DNA of 64,000 nucleotides, from positions 3,410,001 through 3,474,000 of the forward strand of contig NZ_CP033969.1 in NCBI RefSeq assembly GCF_003854935.1, in the 5' to 3' direction. Below, piece after piece: positions 50,458 through 53,152 of the stretch; the stretch's first letter is position 1; the number at the start of each line of letters is the position of its first letter. Source of the DNA: Cupriavidus pauculus (GTDB lineage Bacteria > Pseudomonadota > Gammaproteobacteria > Burkholderiales > Burkholderiaceae). Position numbers and translations under genes: made by a program. Under the pieces are notes generated by a model that was given only the letters and a program-made list of their open reading frames with translations, searched no databases and had not been told where the DNA came from.

Positions 50458-51513
50458 CTACGGCCTCACCTCATACACCAGATTGAACGGCGTCTGCGCC
50501 GCGCGGCGGAAGCTGCCGAAGCCGCCCTGCTCGGTCACGCCGCGCATGCGGGCCTCGCCGGCCTGGGCGCCCAGGCACATCGCGCCGTCCTGCGCCCGCG
50601 ATCCCGGCGTGCAGATGAACGTCGACGCCGAATAGAACACGCGGCCGACGGGATTCAGGTTGTCCTGCAGGCTGTCGTTGGCAAACGGTTCCACGATCAT
50701 CCAGCAGCCGTCGGGCTTCAGCGTCTCGCGGACGTGGCGCGCCGCGCCCACGGGGTCGCCCATGTCGTGCAGGCAGTCGAACACGGCCACGAGGTCGTAG
50801 TCGCGGCCCGGGTAGTCCTTGGCCGATGCCACCTCGAACTGCACGCGGTCGGCCACGCCGGCGCGGCGGGCGGCCTCGGTGGCGTAGCGGATCGACGGCT
50901 CGTGGTAGTCGAAGCCGCGGAACGTGGCGTGCGGGAACGCCTGGGCCATGATGATCGTCGACGCGCCGTGGCCGCAGCCGACGTCGGCCACCACGGCCCC
51001 GGCCGCGAGCCGGGCCGCCATGCCTTCGAGCGCCGGAATCCATTCGCTGACCAGATGCGCGGCATAGCCGGGCCGGAAGAACCGCTCGGTGCCGTGGAAC
51101 AGCGCCGGATCGTGCTCGTGCCAGCCCAGGCCTCGGCCGTTGCGGAAGATCTCGATCATGCGCGGGATGGCCCGGAACTGGGCCACCGCAATCTGGAACG
51201 CGCCCGGGATGAAGGCCGGGCTGCCTTCCTGGGCCAGCGCGAACGCCTGTTCCTCGGTCAGCGAGAACTGGTCGGTCGCCGGGTCGTACTCCACGTAGCC
51301 GCTCGCGGCCTGGGCGGACAGCCACTCGCGCACGTAGCGCCCGTCGGTCCGGGTCTTGGCGGCCAGCGTGTCGCTGGTCATCGGTTTTTCGGCCAGCGCC
51401 TTGTACAGGCCCAGCTCGTCACCCACCACCACGGTGGCCGCGTGCATCACGGCCCCGATGTCATGCACGAACTTCTCCATAAAGGCATTCAGCCTTGCTT
51501 CATCGACTGACAT
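50458..51513 (-). CDS. SAM-dependent methyltransferase with winged-helix N-terminus
   Basis: A 351-residue class I methyltransferase. The first 90 residues form a dimerisation/winged-helix domain (GLYKALAEKPMTSDTLAAKT, YVREWLSAQAASGYVEYD), as in O-methyltransferase-like and Rv2258c-like proteins. The SAM-binding motif is VVADVGCGHGAST (about residue 180) followed by GFDYHEPSI. The acidic post-II motif is AVFDCLHDMGDP. The substrate is unknown. I chose the ATG at 51513 with GGAGG eight bases upstream, not the GTG that sits on top of that ribosome site. Confidence 0.85.
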   Translation of the reverse strand: MSVDEARLNAFMEKFVHDIGAVMHAATVVVGDELGLYKALAEKPMTSDTLAAKTRTDGRYVREWLSAQAASGYVEYDPATDQFSLTEEQAFALAQEGSPAFIPGAFQIAVAQFRAIPRMIEIFRNGRGLGWHEHDPALFHGTERFFRPGYAAHLVSEWIPALEGMAARLAAGAVVADVGCGHGASTIIMAQAFPHATFRGFDYHEPSIRYATEAARRAGVADRVQFEVASAKDYPGRDYDLVAVFDCLHDMGDPVGAARHVRETLKPDGCWMIVEPFANDSLQDNLNPVGRVFYSASTFICTPGSRAQDGAMCLGAQAGEARMRGVTEQGGFGSFRRAAQTPFNLVYEVRP

Positions 51514-51628
51514 GATCGGCACCTCCGCCTGCTGATTATTGTTCGCCGCCCCTTCGTACCAGGGCTTGCCTTTGTAATATAGGCAGCCGGAATATCCTGC
51601 ATCGGCTTAAAACTGTTGCGGTTGCCGC

Positions 51629-51657
51629 TTGCAAGGCCCCGGGAAAAGCGCTATAAA
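51629..51657 (+). promoter_or_regulatory. Candidate promoter of the aroG leader transcript
   Basis: TTGCAA (51629-51634), a 17-base spacer and TATAAA (51652-51657). The transcript would start near 51664, about 145 bases before the leader-peptide ATG. Confidence 0.55.
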
Positions 51658-51808
51658 GATGCTTCGTTGTCGCACGGGCGGCGACCGCGCCCGCAGAATC
51701 TGCAGGCCGCGGCGCAATTAAATGCCACGCCACCCCGCGCCGCAGCATTAATTTCACGCCTCGGCGTCAAACCGACACAAGCTCGCTACAGCCAGACCGT
51801 TTCCCGCC

Positions 51809-51880
51809 ATGTCCGCCAAGTTTTACTTTTACTTCTTTTGGCATCTCACACCGCTGGCGGATAGAGAGGGACGGCTGTAG
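51809..51880 (+). CDS. aroG leader peptide rich in aromatic residues
   Basis: A 23-codon frame from ATG 51809 to TAG 51878-51880. Residues 5-11 are Phe-Tyr-Phe-Tyr-Phe-Phe-Trp, seven aromatic codons in a row. It lies 114 bases before aroG, which makes the first intermediate of aromatic amino acid synthesis. That composition is very unlikely by chance and is the hallmark of an attenuation leader peptide. No strong ribosome site is visible, only short purine runs. Its role would be to sense charged tRNA-Phe/Tyr (and perhaps Trp) by ribosome stalling. Confidence 0.82.
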   Translation: MSAKFYFYFFWHLTPLADREGRL

Positions 51881-51929
51881 GCAGACCCCCAATGCAAGAG
51901 AAACCGCCAGCGACCCTGGCGGTTTTTTT
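51811..51929 (+). promoter_or_regulatory. Transcription attenuator of aroG
   Basis: Four pairing segments can be read. Segment 1 (GTCCGCCA, 51811-51818) can pair with segment 2 (TGGCGGAT, 51855-51862; one G-U). Segment 2 (CGCTGGCGG, 51852-51860) pairs perfectly with segment 3 (CCGCCAGCG, 51904-51912), the antiterminator. Segment 3 (AAACCGCCAG, 51901-51910) pairs perfectly with segment 4 (CTGGCGGTTT, 51916-51925), followed by T's to 51929, the terminator. A ribosome stalled at the aromatic codons 51821-51841 would free segment 2 and let aroG be transcribed. Confidence 0.82.
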
Positions 51930-51994
51930 ATGTCCGCCACGACCGCGACGCACCATCCCAACAGAATCAAGACCTCACAAGACCCGGAGCCATC

Positions 51995-53074
51995 ATGCTG
52001 AAGAACACCGACGACCTGCGTATTCGAGAACTCAAGGAGCTGCTGCCCCCGGCGCACCTGATCCGCGAGTTCGCCTGCTCGGAAGCCGCGTCCGACGTGA
52101 TCTATGGCGCCCGCCAGGCCATGCACCGTATCCTGCACGGCATGGATGACCGGCTGATCGTGATCATCGGGCCGTGCTCGATCCACGACACCCGCGCGGC
52201 GCTGGAATACGCCAAGCTGCTCAAGGTGCAGCGCGAGCGGTTTGCGGGCGAGCTGGAGGTCGTGATGCGGGTCTACTTCGAAAAGCCGCGCACCACGGTG
52301 GGCTGGAAGGGCCTGATCAACGACCCGCACATGGATGGCAGCTTCAAGATCAACGACGGCCTGCGCACGGCCCGCGAACTGCTGCTGAACATCAGCGAGA
52401 TGGGCGTGCCCACCGGCACCGAATACCTGGACATGATCAGCCCGCAATACATTGCCGACCTGGTGAGCTGGGGCGCCATCGGGGCGCGCACGACCGAGTC
52501 GCAGGTGCACCGCGAGCTGGCGTCGGGGCTGTCCTGCCCGGTCGGCTTCAAGAACGGCACGGACGGCAACGTGAAGATCGCGGTCGACGCCATCAAGGCC
52601 GCGTCGCAGCCGCACCATTTCCTCTCGGTGACCAAGGGCGGCCACTCGGCCATCGTGTCGACGGCCGGCAACGAGGACTGCCACATCATCCTGCGCGGCG
52701 GCAAGGCGCCGAACTACGACGCCGCGAGCGTGCAGGAAGCCTGCGACGCCATCGCCAAGGCCGGCCTGGCCGCCCGCCTGATGATCGATGCCTCGCACGC
52801 CAACAGCAGCAAGAAGCACGAGAACCAGTTGCCGGTGTGCCAGGACATCGGCAACCAGATCGCCGGCGGCGACCAGCGCATCGTCGGCGTCATGGTGGAA
52901 TCGCACCTCGTGGCCGGCCGCCAGGATCACGTGCAGGGCACGCCCGTGGAGAACCTGACCTACGGCCAGTCTGTGACCGACGCCTGCATCGGCTGGGACG
53001 ATTCGATCGGGATCCTGGAAACACTGGCCAACGCGGTCAAGCAGCGCCGGCTCGTGTCCGGCAGCGGCAACTGA
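51995..53074 (+). CDS. aroG: 3-deoxy-7-phosphoheptulonate (DAHP) synthase, class I
   Basis: Condenses phosphoenolpyruvate and erythrose 4-phosphate, the entry to the shikimate pathway. The 359-residue protein is a full AroG/AroF/AroH-type enzyme: IGPCSIHD near residue 58, MRVYFEKPRTTVGWKG near 91, GARTTESQVHRELASGLS near 165, the GFKNGTDGN motif, and DASHANSSKK with metal-binding residues near 265. GGAG lies eight bases before the ATG. The upstream attenuator suggests control by aromatic amino acid supply; which amino acid inhibits the enzyme itself cannot be read with certainty. Confidence 0.96.
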   Translation: MLKNTDDLRIRELKELLPPAHLIREFACSEAASDVIYGARQAMHRILHGMDDRLIVIIGPCSIHDTRAALEYAKLLKVQRERFAGELEVVMRVYFEKPRTTVGWKGLINDPHMDGSFKINDGLRTARELLLNISEMGVPTGTEYLDMISPQYIADLVSWGAIGARTTESQVHRELASGLSCPVGFKNGTDGNVKIAVDAIKAASQPHHFLSVTKGGHSAIVSTAGNEDCHIILRGGKAPNYDAASVQEACDAIAKAGLAARLMIDASHANSSKKHENQLPVCQDIGNQIAGGDQRIVGVMVESHLVAGRQDHVQGTPVENLTYGQSVTDACIGWDDSIGILETLANAVKQRRLVSGSGN

Positions 53075-53091: not shown

Positions 53092-53120
53092 AAAACGCCG
53101 ACCCACGGGTCGGCGTTTTT
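53092..53120 (+). terminator. Rho-independent terminator after aroG
   Basis: AAAACGCCGACCC (53092-53104) and GGGTCGGCGTTTT (53107-53119) form a perfect 13-bp stem ending in T's. It is symmetric and may also serve the convergent cytochrome gene. Confidence 0.9.
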
Positions 53121-53152
53121 CATGGGGCTGGCGCGGCCAGCGCGCCGGCCGC

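Follow-up and report, generated by a model that had tools for sequence, protein, structure and literature searches.

Upstream of aroG, the gene for 3-deoxy-D-arabino-heptulosonate 7-phosphate (DAHP) synthase in Cupriavidus pauculus, lies a putative ribosome-mediated attenuator. The DNA analyzed, hereafter the window, is a stretch of 64,000 nucleotides (nt) from contig NZ_CP033969.1 of assembly GCF_003854935.1 (positions 3,410,001 to 3,474,000 of the forward strand), and all coordinates are counted from its first letter. DAHP synthase is the control point of carbon entry into all aromatic amino acids, and the closest solved structures to the aroG product include a Phe-regulated DAHP synthase. 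The gene is preceded, on the same strand, by a sigma-70-type promoter, a short open reading frame (ORF) with a run of codons for phenylalanine (Phe), tyrosine (Tyr) and tryptophan (Trp), and an intrinsic terminator. Several segments of the leader RNA can pair in alternative ways (Table 1).

Table 1. Features at the aroG locus, in positions of the window.
Feature	Position	Strand	Basis or remark
Sigma-70-type promoter, TTGCAA-17-TATAAA	51629..51657	+	TTGCAA 51629-51634, TATAAA 51652-51657, 17-nt spacer
Leader ORF, 23 codons, MSAKFYFYFFWHLTPLADREGRL	51809..51880	+	Sequence; conserved in relatives
Segment 1, GTCCGCCA	51811..51818	+	Pairs with 51855-51862, one G-U
Regulatory codons 5-11, Phe-Tyr-Phe-Tyr-Phe-Phe-Trp (FYFYFFW)	51821..51841	+	Codon counts in 57 leaders, aromatic presence in 96
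Local hairpin over segment 2, UCUC..CCG-CUGG-CGG..GAGA, candidate pause or protector hairpin	51844..51867	+	RNAalifold consensus
Segment 2, 5' arm of the antiterminator, within the leader ORF, CGCTGGCGG	51852..51860	+	Perfect complement of 51904-51912
Segment 3, common to antiterminator and terminator	51904..51912	+	
Intrinsic terminator, hairpin 51901-51925 and T run to 51929	51901..51929	+	Sequence, pair conservation
aroG, DAHP synthase, 359 amino acids	51995..53074	+	NCBIfam NF006723 AroG equivalog, 595.5 bits against a cut-off of 568
Terminator-like repeat 3' of the aroG stop codon	about 53094-53122	+	Read in sequence

The leader and its conservation

The initial annotation had described the 23-codon leader with its FYFYFFW run, the promoter, the terminator hairpin with its T run, and a perfect 9-base-pair antiterminator. 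All of these were borne out; the distance from the terminator to aroG, given as 66 bases, is corrected to 65 bases between the T run and the ATG. Among ORFs of 10-60 codons, a stretch of eight residues with at least six aromatics occurs once in the window, in the aroG leader, and never in 60 first-order Markov windows of the same composition. With at least five aromatics in eight, the window has two such ORFs, compared with a simulated mean of 0.07. The terminator hairpin, AAACCGCCAG-CGACC-CTGGCGGTTT, has a calculated stability of -15.1 kcal/mol, about equal to that of the isolated antiterminator helix, -15.4 kcal/mol.

The locus was compared with the best 80 of 592 relatives, a choice biased to close kin because only the best were taken. 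Of the resulting 81 aroG loci, 79 were split by family label and leader type into a Burkholderiaceae group of 59, the window and 58 others, and an Oxalobacteraceae group of 20; two loci (L014 and L073) carry no family label, and one labelled Burkholderiaceae (L074) was put in the Oxalobacteraceae group by its leader. An aromatic-rich leader and a terminator stand ahead of aroG in 79 of the 81, that is, in the window, the 58 other loci of the first group and the 20 of the second, so the conservation of leader codons and stems in relatives that an attenuator calls for was found. The two exceptions are L069, which has a leader and no T run by our rule, and L067, which has neither leader nor terminator. 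Both were excluded from the alignments of the two groups, A1 and A2, respectively. Pairs were counted on distinct rows only, 58 in A1 and 19 in A2, and codons were counted in 57 in-frame Burkholderiaceae-group leaders, with L018 and L040 left out because an indel shifts the frame. Leaders were located by their aromatic content, and the amino acid tallies given below describe leaders found that way: 96 in all, 59 from the Burkholderiaceae group, 20 from the Oxalobacteraceae group and 17 divergent ones.

Codons 5-10 vary in ways that mostly keep the amino acid or its aromatic character. Of 16 variant codon types, six are silent, seven replace one aromatic residue by another, and three, for Leu, His and Ala, do neither, and these three account for five codon occurrences altogether. 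The two Tyr codons are used nearly equally at codon 6 (TAT 27, TAC 26), and both Phe codons are common at codon 9 (TTT 34, TTC 21). After the run, silent sites are held: CTC at codon 13 and GCG at codon 17 in all 57 leaders, CTG at codon 16 and GAG at codon 20 in 56 of 57, and CCG at codon 15 in 54 of 56, with codons 14, 18 and 19 variable. Codons 13, 15-17 and 20 sit in and around segment 2. Thus, it is the peptide that is conserved in the first part of the leader and, over much of the second part, the RNA. Most length differences ahead of the stop codon are whole codons. In L018 and L040, the exceptions, a one-base indel in or beside the Phe run alters the tail peptide and leaves the segment 2 RNA intact; these indels may reflect decay or a sequencing error, or they may be a hint from nature that the tail matters only as RNA.

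The pairings were then counted in the alignments. At the terminator, 99.8% of cells are paired in A1 and 96.8% in A2, and two pairs in each alignment show two-sided changes. The cells with such changes exceed those in shuffled alignments (0 of 500 as high for A1, 1 of 500 for A2), and the number of two-sided pairs does so in A2 (14 of 500 as high) and not in A1 (74 of 500). A terminator follows the leader in all 41 diverse representatives, which comprise 24 of the 79 named loci and 17 of 24 positives from an order-wide sample described below. The antiterminator pairs are kept in 94.8% of cells in A1 and 85.7% in A2. In the 41 representatives, segment 2 pairs more stably with its own segment 3 than with those of others (mean -16.1 vs -14.5 kcal/mol, with 0 of 5000 permutations as stable), although this comparison ignores relatedness. 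Furthermore, the pairing of segment 2 beats at least 95 of 100 shuffled tails in 32 of the 41.

Two other structures involve segment 2. The initial annotation had proposed that segment 1 sequesters it, and this holds in the Burkholderiaceae group, where at least seven pairs form in 52 of 59 loci, and 49 of the 59 outdo 95 or more of 100 shuffles. No such pairing was found for the Oxalobacteraceae group (1 and 0 of 20 loci, respectively). In A1, the segment 1 pairing is kept in 94.6% of cells over the seven pairs counted, without covariation. In addition, the RNAalifold consensus of each group contains a local hairpin across segment 2, in a register that is shifted in the Oxalobacteraceae group. 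It is built of UCUC/GAGA around CC/GG in the Burkholderiaceae group, and of GC/GC, UUC/GAG and a CC-containing inner helix in the Oxalobacteraceae group. Its pairs are kept in 99.5% of cells in A1 and 96.7% in A2.

Folding and the proposed mechanism

The leader RNA was folded in the presence of a ribosome in a downstream-only model, in which only the RNA ahead of the ribosome is folded. For the window, the antiterminator probability is 1.00 with the ribosome on codons 3-12 and falls to 0.58 at codon 13. The mean over the aromatic codons is above 0.5 in 79 of 79 loci. The position of the drop tracks the aromatic run. In the Ralstonia pickettii leader, the run ends at codon 12 and the drop is at codon 14; a Trinickia leader that is two codons longer has the end of its run at codon 13 and the drop at codon 15. 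A ribosome stalled on Phe or Tyr codons therefore leaves segment 2 free, and transcription of aroG would be expected to proceed. When no ribosome is present, the antiterminator probability is below 0.5 in 31 of the 59 Burkholderiaceae-group loci and 19 of the 20 Oxalobacteraceae-group loci.

We suggest that the leader is very probably a ribosome-mediated attenuator, in which the supply of charged Phe- and Tyr-transfer RNA (tRNA) would set the share of transcripts that reach aroG. The sequences show the parts of the leader and their conservation, amino acid constraint on the Phe and Tyr codons, nucleotide constraint around segment 2, and a stall site in register with that segment. A leader run of product codons, a terminator before the gene, an antiterminator on the 5' arm of that terminator and, in downstream-only folding, the stall register are all present at the locus. 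The trp/phe-type architecture that the initial annotation had claimed for a DAHP synthase gene is supported by this comparative evidence. From these observations, we infer translation of the leader, stalling, termination and a response to amino acids. RNA polymerase would start at the promoter, and a ribosome would translate the leader. A shortage of Phe-tRNA or Tyr-tRNA would stall the ribosome within codons 5-11, with its front edge before segment 2. The freed segment 2 could then pair with segment 3 as it emerges, so that no terminator forms and transcription continues into aroG. With both tRNAs charged, the ribosome would cross segment 2, reach the stop codon at 51878 and leave. Segment 2 would then be masked by the ribosome or folded back, into the local hairpin or, in the Burkholderiaceae, onto segment 1. 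Segment 3 would pair with segment 4, and transcription would end at about 51929.

Several results weigh against this reading, some of them concerning the OFF state. Without a ribosome, and before segment 4 is made, the antiterminator is favoured in 28 of 59 Burkholderiaceae-group loci and one of 20 in the Oxalobacteraceae group; it is also the minimum-energy fold of 51795-51915 of the window. With the ribosome four to seven codons past the run, the mean antiterminator probability, counting every pairing between segment 3 and the leader tail, is still 0.42 in the Burkholderiaceae group and 0.60 in the Oxalobacteraceae group; only 20 of 59 and 5 of 20 loci, respectively, fall under 0.3. A model that allows pairs across the ribosome separated the states weakly overall: for the window, codon 5 is the one stall position with a clear response, and with the ribosome on the stop codon the antiterminator probability is 1.00 for the window and 0.74 as the group mean. 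Thus, the OFF state is poorly explained by folding, and termination probably needs prompt release of the ribosome and kinetic folding, which lie outside these models. In the alignments, the antiterminator shows no covariation beyond chance within either group, because GGCGG/CCGCC hardly varies, and nine of the 41 representatives do not clearly beat their own shuffled tails. The local hairpin shows no two-sided changes in A1 or A2, so it rests on silent-site invariance and on its parallel prediction in both groups. A Shine-Dalgarno (SD)-like motif was found in none of the 59 Burkholderiaceae-group leaders, the window included, and in 4 of 20 Oxalobacteraceae-group leaders, so efficient translation of the leader is not self-evident. 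Finally, leader and terminator were not found together in 56 of the 80 regions of the order-wide sample, nor in any region of 19 of its 28 family codes.

What does the leader sense? The earlier suggestion that it responds to more than one aromatic tRNA fits Phe and Tyr, whose codons are conserved; Trp is no generally conserved signal. In the best eight-residue stretch, Phe is present in all 96 leaders, Tyr in 93 and Trp in 54. The corresponding counts for Phe, Tyr and Trp are 59, 59 and 44 of 59 in the Burkholderiaceae group, 20, 20 and 2 of 20 in the Oxalobacteraceae group, and 17, 14 and 8 of 17 among the divergent leaders. That the leader is a three-way aromatic sensor, responding to Trp too, is rather unlikely in our view. 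The presence of Trp at codon 11 in 45 of the 57 Burkholderiaceae-group leaders and in eight of the divergent runs speaks for it, as does the finding that in the window a ribosome on Trp codon 11 still leaves segment 2 free. Against it, Trp is nearly missing from the Oxalobacteraceae group, and in the rest of the 57 leaders codon 11 encodes Ser (6 leaders), Ala (5) or Phe (1), with five of the Ser or Ala leaders labelled Cupriavidus. On the codon evidence, Phe and Tyr are the likely signal, and Trp is optional. The aromatic codons might also matter little, with read-through set by slow leader translation in general, as a result of poor initiation, antibiotics or guanosine tetraphosphate (ppGpp). 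The missing SD-like motif would fit such a general sensor, and U-rich codons such as TTT and TAC may also serve to keep the stretch unstructured. However, it is amino acid identity that is kept, not mere U-richness, with free exchange of TAT and TAC and of TTT and TTC; the length differences are mostly of whole codons, apart from L018 and L040; and the leader precedes the gene for the first step of Phe and Tyr synthesis. We consider this explanation quite improbable.

Two further readings concern the terminator and its product. Intergenic terminators of the intrinsic type are common, and GC-rich hairpins often look alike, so the hairpin might simply end an upstream transcript, with a chance ORF in front of it and a coincidental aromatic run. 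The gene upstream of the leader (50458-51522, with methyltransferase domains) is on the opposite strand, so there is no obvious upstream transcript for the terminator to end. The uniqueness of the run in the window and its absence from the simulated windows, the retention of most Phe and Tyr residues while silent sites vary, and the joint occurrence of leader and terminator in 79 of 81 loci also make this reading hardly credible. Alternatively, the terminated leader RNA or its peptide could act mainly in trans. There is precedent in S. meliloti, where, according to PMC7298713, the trp leader peptide peTrpL is required to regulate another operon. The leader RNA of the window would be about 265 nt long, and Cupriavidus relatives share blocks of sequence ahead of the ORF. 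On the other hand, the peptide tail is lost on frame shift in L018 and L040, and a role in cis explains the anatomy. A main action in trans seems very improbable to us. A broader combination would be an old betaproteobacterial switch that pools Phe and Tyr codons as one shortage signal in place of TyrR and TrpR, at the entry to the pathway, with a leader that is translated without an SD motif, by eye starting in some families seemingly next to the 5' end of the transcript, and with a second, trans-acting role for the terminated leader RNA, which in the lineage of the window is about 265 nt long and has conserved 5' blocks; as a whole, this seems improbable to us.

Returning to the ribosome-mediated attenuator, a leader-peptide switch of this kind appears, from the comparison of sequences, to control DAHP synthase in Burkholderiaceae, Oxalobacteraceae and further families of the order. 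If this is true, it would account for the way in which lineages lacking these two E. coli repressors, TyrR and TrpR, fit aroG expression to demand. Natural variants, with Trp vs Ser or Ala at codon 11 and with segment 1 present or absent, are available for testing the rules of attenuation. The proposed aroG attenuator is also a target for deregulating the shikimate pathway in production strains of Cupriavidus and Paraburkholderia.

Distribution and relation to known systems

A covariance model was built from the 59 Burkholderiaceae-group sequences. In the genome of the window, it finds one clear site, with an E-value of 1e-23, and the next match has an E-value of 0.37. Among 121 genomes of the family, some of which supplied sequences to the model, sites with E values of at most 0.01 were found in 89, and the site is single in 88 of these. 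The remaining genome has a second, weak match (G362:C1:2653064-2653186, E 0.008). No site was found in 32 of the 121 genomes under strict search filters that can lose weak matches; the 20 of these that were listed are all small, 0.2 to 2.8 Mb. A strict DNA pattern, searched in 143 genomes of the class, found only the genome of the window itself and is too narrow to show distribution.

A DAHP synthase match at 1e-100 is present in 147 of 200 genomes of the order. The order-wide sample consists of 80 upstream regions, hand-picked to span 28 family codes, ten of them belonging to second DAHP synthase copies; at least three (L084, L086 and L088) seem to duplicate the contigs of L036, L059 and L067. 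Leader and terminator were found together in 24 of the 80 regions, from nine family codes (that of the window, f1, together with f8 and seven others). Four of the positives (L123, L134, L151 and L152) were given a terminator only under a laxer rule, and L086 was counted by its sequence. By script, none of the ten second copies has leader and terminator, and six of the ten sit in genomes whose first copy bears them. In family f49, the leader-bearing DAHP synthase copies are only 63% identical to the AroG of the window, so the leader extends beyond its closest orthologues.

The pheL-pheA and trpL-trpE systems of E. coli are leader-peptide attenuators, and E. coli DAHP synthase is a textbook case of repressor and feedback control. 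The aroG leader resembles pheL and trpL in having a short ORF in which codons for the end product form a run, an antiterminator and a terminator that exclude each other, a T run, and a biosynthetic gene downstream. It differs from them in that the enzyme controlled is DAHP synthase rather than a branch enzyme, Phe and Tyr codons are mixed, and segment 2 lies inside the leader ORF, with the stop codon beginning 18 nt past it in the window. Control of E. coli DAHP synthase by TyrR and TrpR acts on the same step and responds to aromatics, but it uses repressor proteins, whereas the switch proposed here is RNA. The initial annotation had drawn this contrast, and it is apt: according to Leyn et al. 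2016 (PMC5343134), TrpR and TyrR are conserved in many gammaproteobacterial groups and absent in other classes, and trpEDCBA and pheA are under attenuation in E. coli.

Attenuation has been predicted for other DAHP synthase genes. The passage on uORFC-13-1 of Acholeplasma in PMC8632094 describes a predicted Phe-coding upstream ORF and a terminator ahead of aroF, and the same paper mentions an earlier hypothesis for E. coli aroF. By that description, uORFC-13-1 shares the Phe-coding ORF and terminator before a DAHP synthase gene with the leader described here, and it is set apart by its occurrence in Acholeplasma and environmental sequences only, by a ribosome-binding site, and by having at least one Phe codon. 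Table 7 of PMC1173090 gives putative attenuators, entries of the Merino database, for the aroA(I-alpha)-tyrA operons of Vibrio. These are likewise predictions of attenuation for a proteobacterial DAHP synthase gene; they differ in being database predictions for a two-gene operon. Since that table covers only tyrA-linked attenuators, betaproteobacterial aroG falls outside it. By term search, neither aroG nor DAHP appears in the main text of a 2010 attenuator survey (PMC2965389), and aroG was not present in the searched text of a 2013 RNA regulon survey (PMC3766115). No description of a betaproteobacterial aroG attenuator was found in the open-licence literature searched; an earlier prediction elsewhere is possible. 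An Rfam search of 51000-52600, with matches up to E 1, gave no amino-acid leader family, T-box or riboswitch; the only sub-threshold matches were to a nematode small nucleolar RNA family and to H19. The proposed mechanism is that of a classical leader-peptide attenuator; the aroG element itself is newly described and widespread.

Other loci and the start of the leader

Other sites in the same genome were inspected. A covariance-model match at G000:C2:490378 (E 0.79) was rejected, being by eye a plain terminator after the upstream gene. No aromatic-rich short ORF was found by script upstream of the pheA-type gene. A second DAHP synthase gene (L082, G000:C3:297787-298839), whose product is 63% identical to the AroG of the window, has no aromatic leader by eye in about 430 bases upstream. 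A short ORF, MFLNRKRNFFGSDRQAWPWRRWRASEQA, with three Trp codons in seven, lies upstream of a TrpE-like gene (L178, G000:C2 about 1248700, minus strand), and no run of five T follows it within the stretch examined.

A simple promoter and terminator scan of the region listed neither the promoter nor the leader terminator. The promoter was missed because the rule of the scan needs a T at the end of the -10 hexamer, and both calls rest on conservation instead. CTTGC and TATAAAG are invariant in all 12 rows of an alignment of the window with 11 loci of the Cupriavidus/Ralstonia group. A loose promoter pattern precedes the leader in 52 of 59 Burkholderiaceae-group loci and 10 of 20 Oxalobacteraceae-group loci; one of the seven misses in the former, L003, has only 29 bases before its leader. 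In the 52 loci with the pattern, the distance from the end of the -10 box to the leader ATG is 35 to 152 nt, with a median of 38. The window, with 151 nt, has an unusually long stretch here. Within 51664-51808, the blocks GCGCAATTnnATGCC and GCAGCATAAAT are common to most of the aligned Cupriavidus loci and were not seen in the two Ralstonia-type loci. A second promoter, a binding site or an RNA element are candidate roles for this stretch. At the other extreme, in several distant families (L091, L094, L111, L141 and L151) only some 5-15 nt, by eye, separate the end of a -10-like hexamer from the leader ATG, which would fit a leaderless or almost leaderless mRNA.

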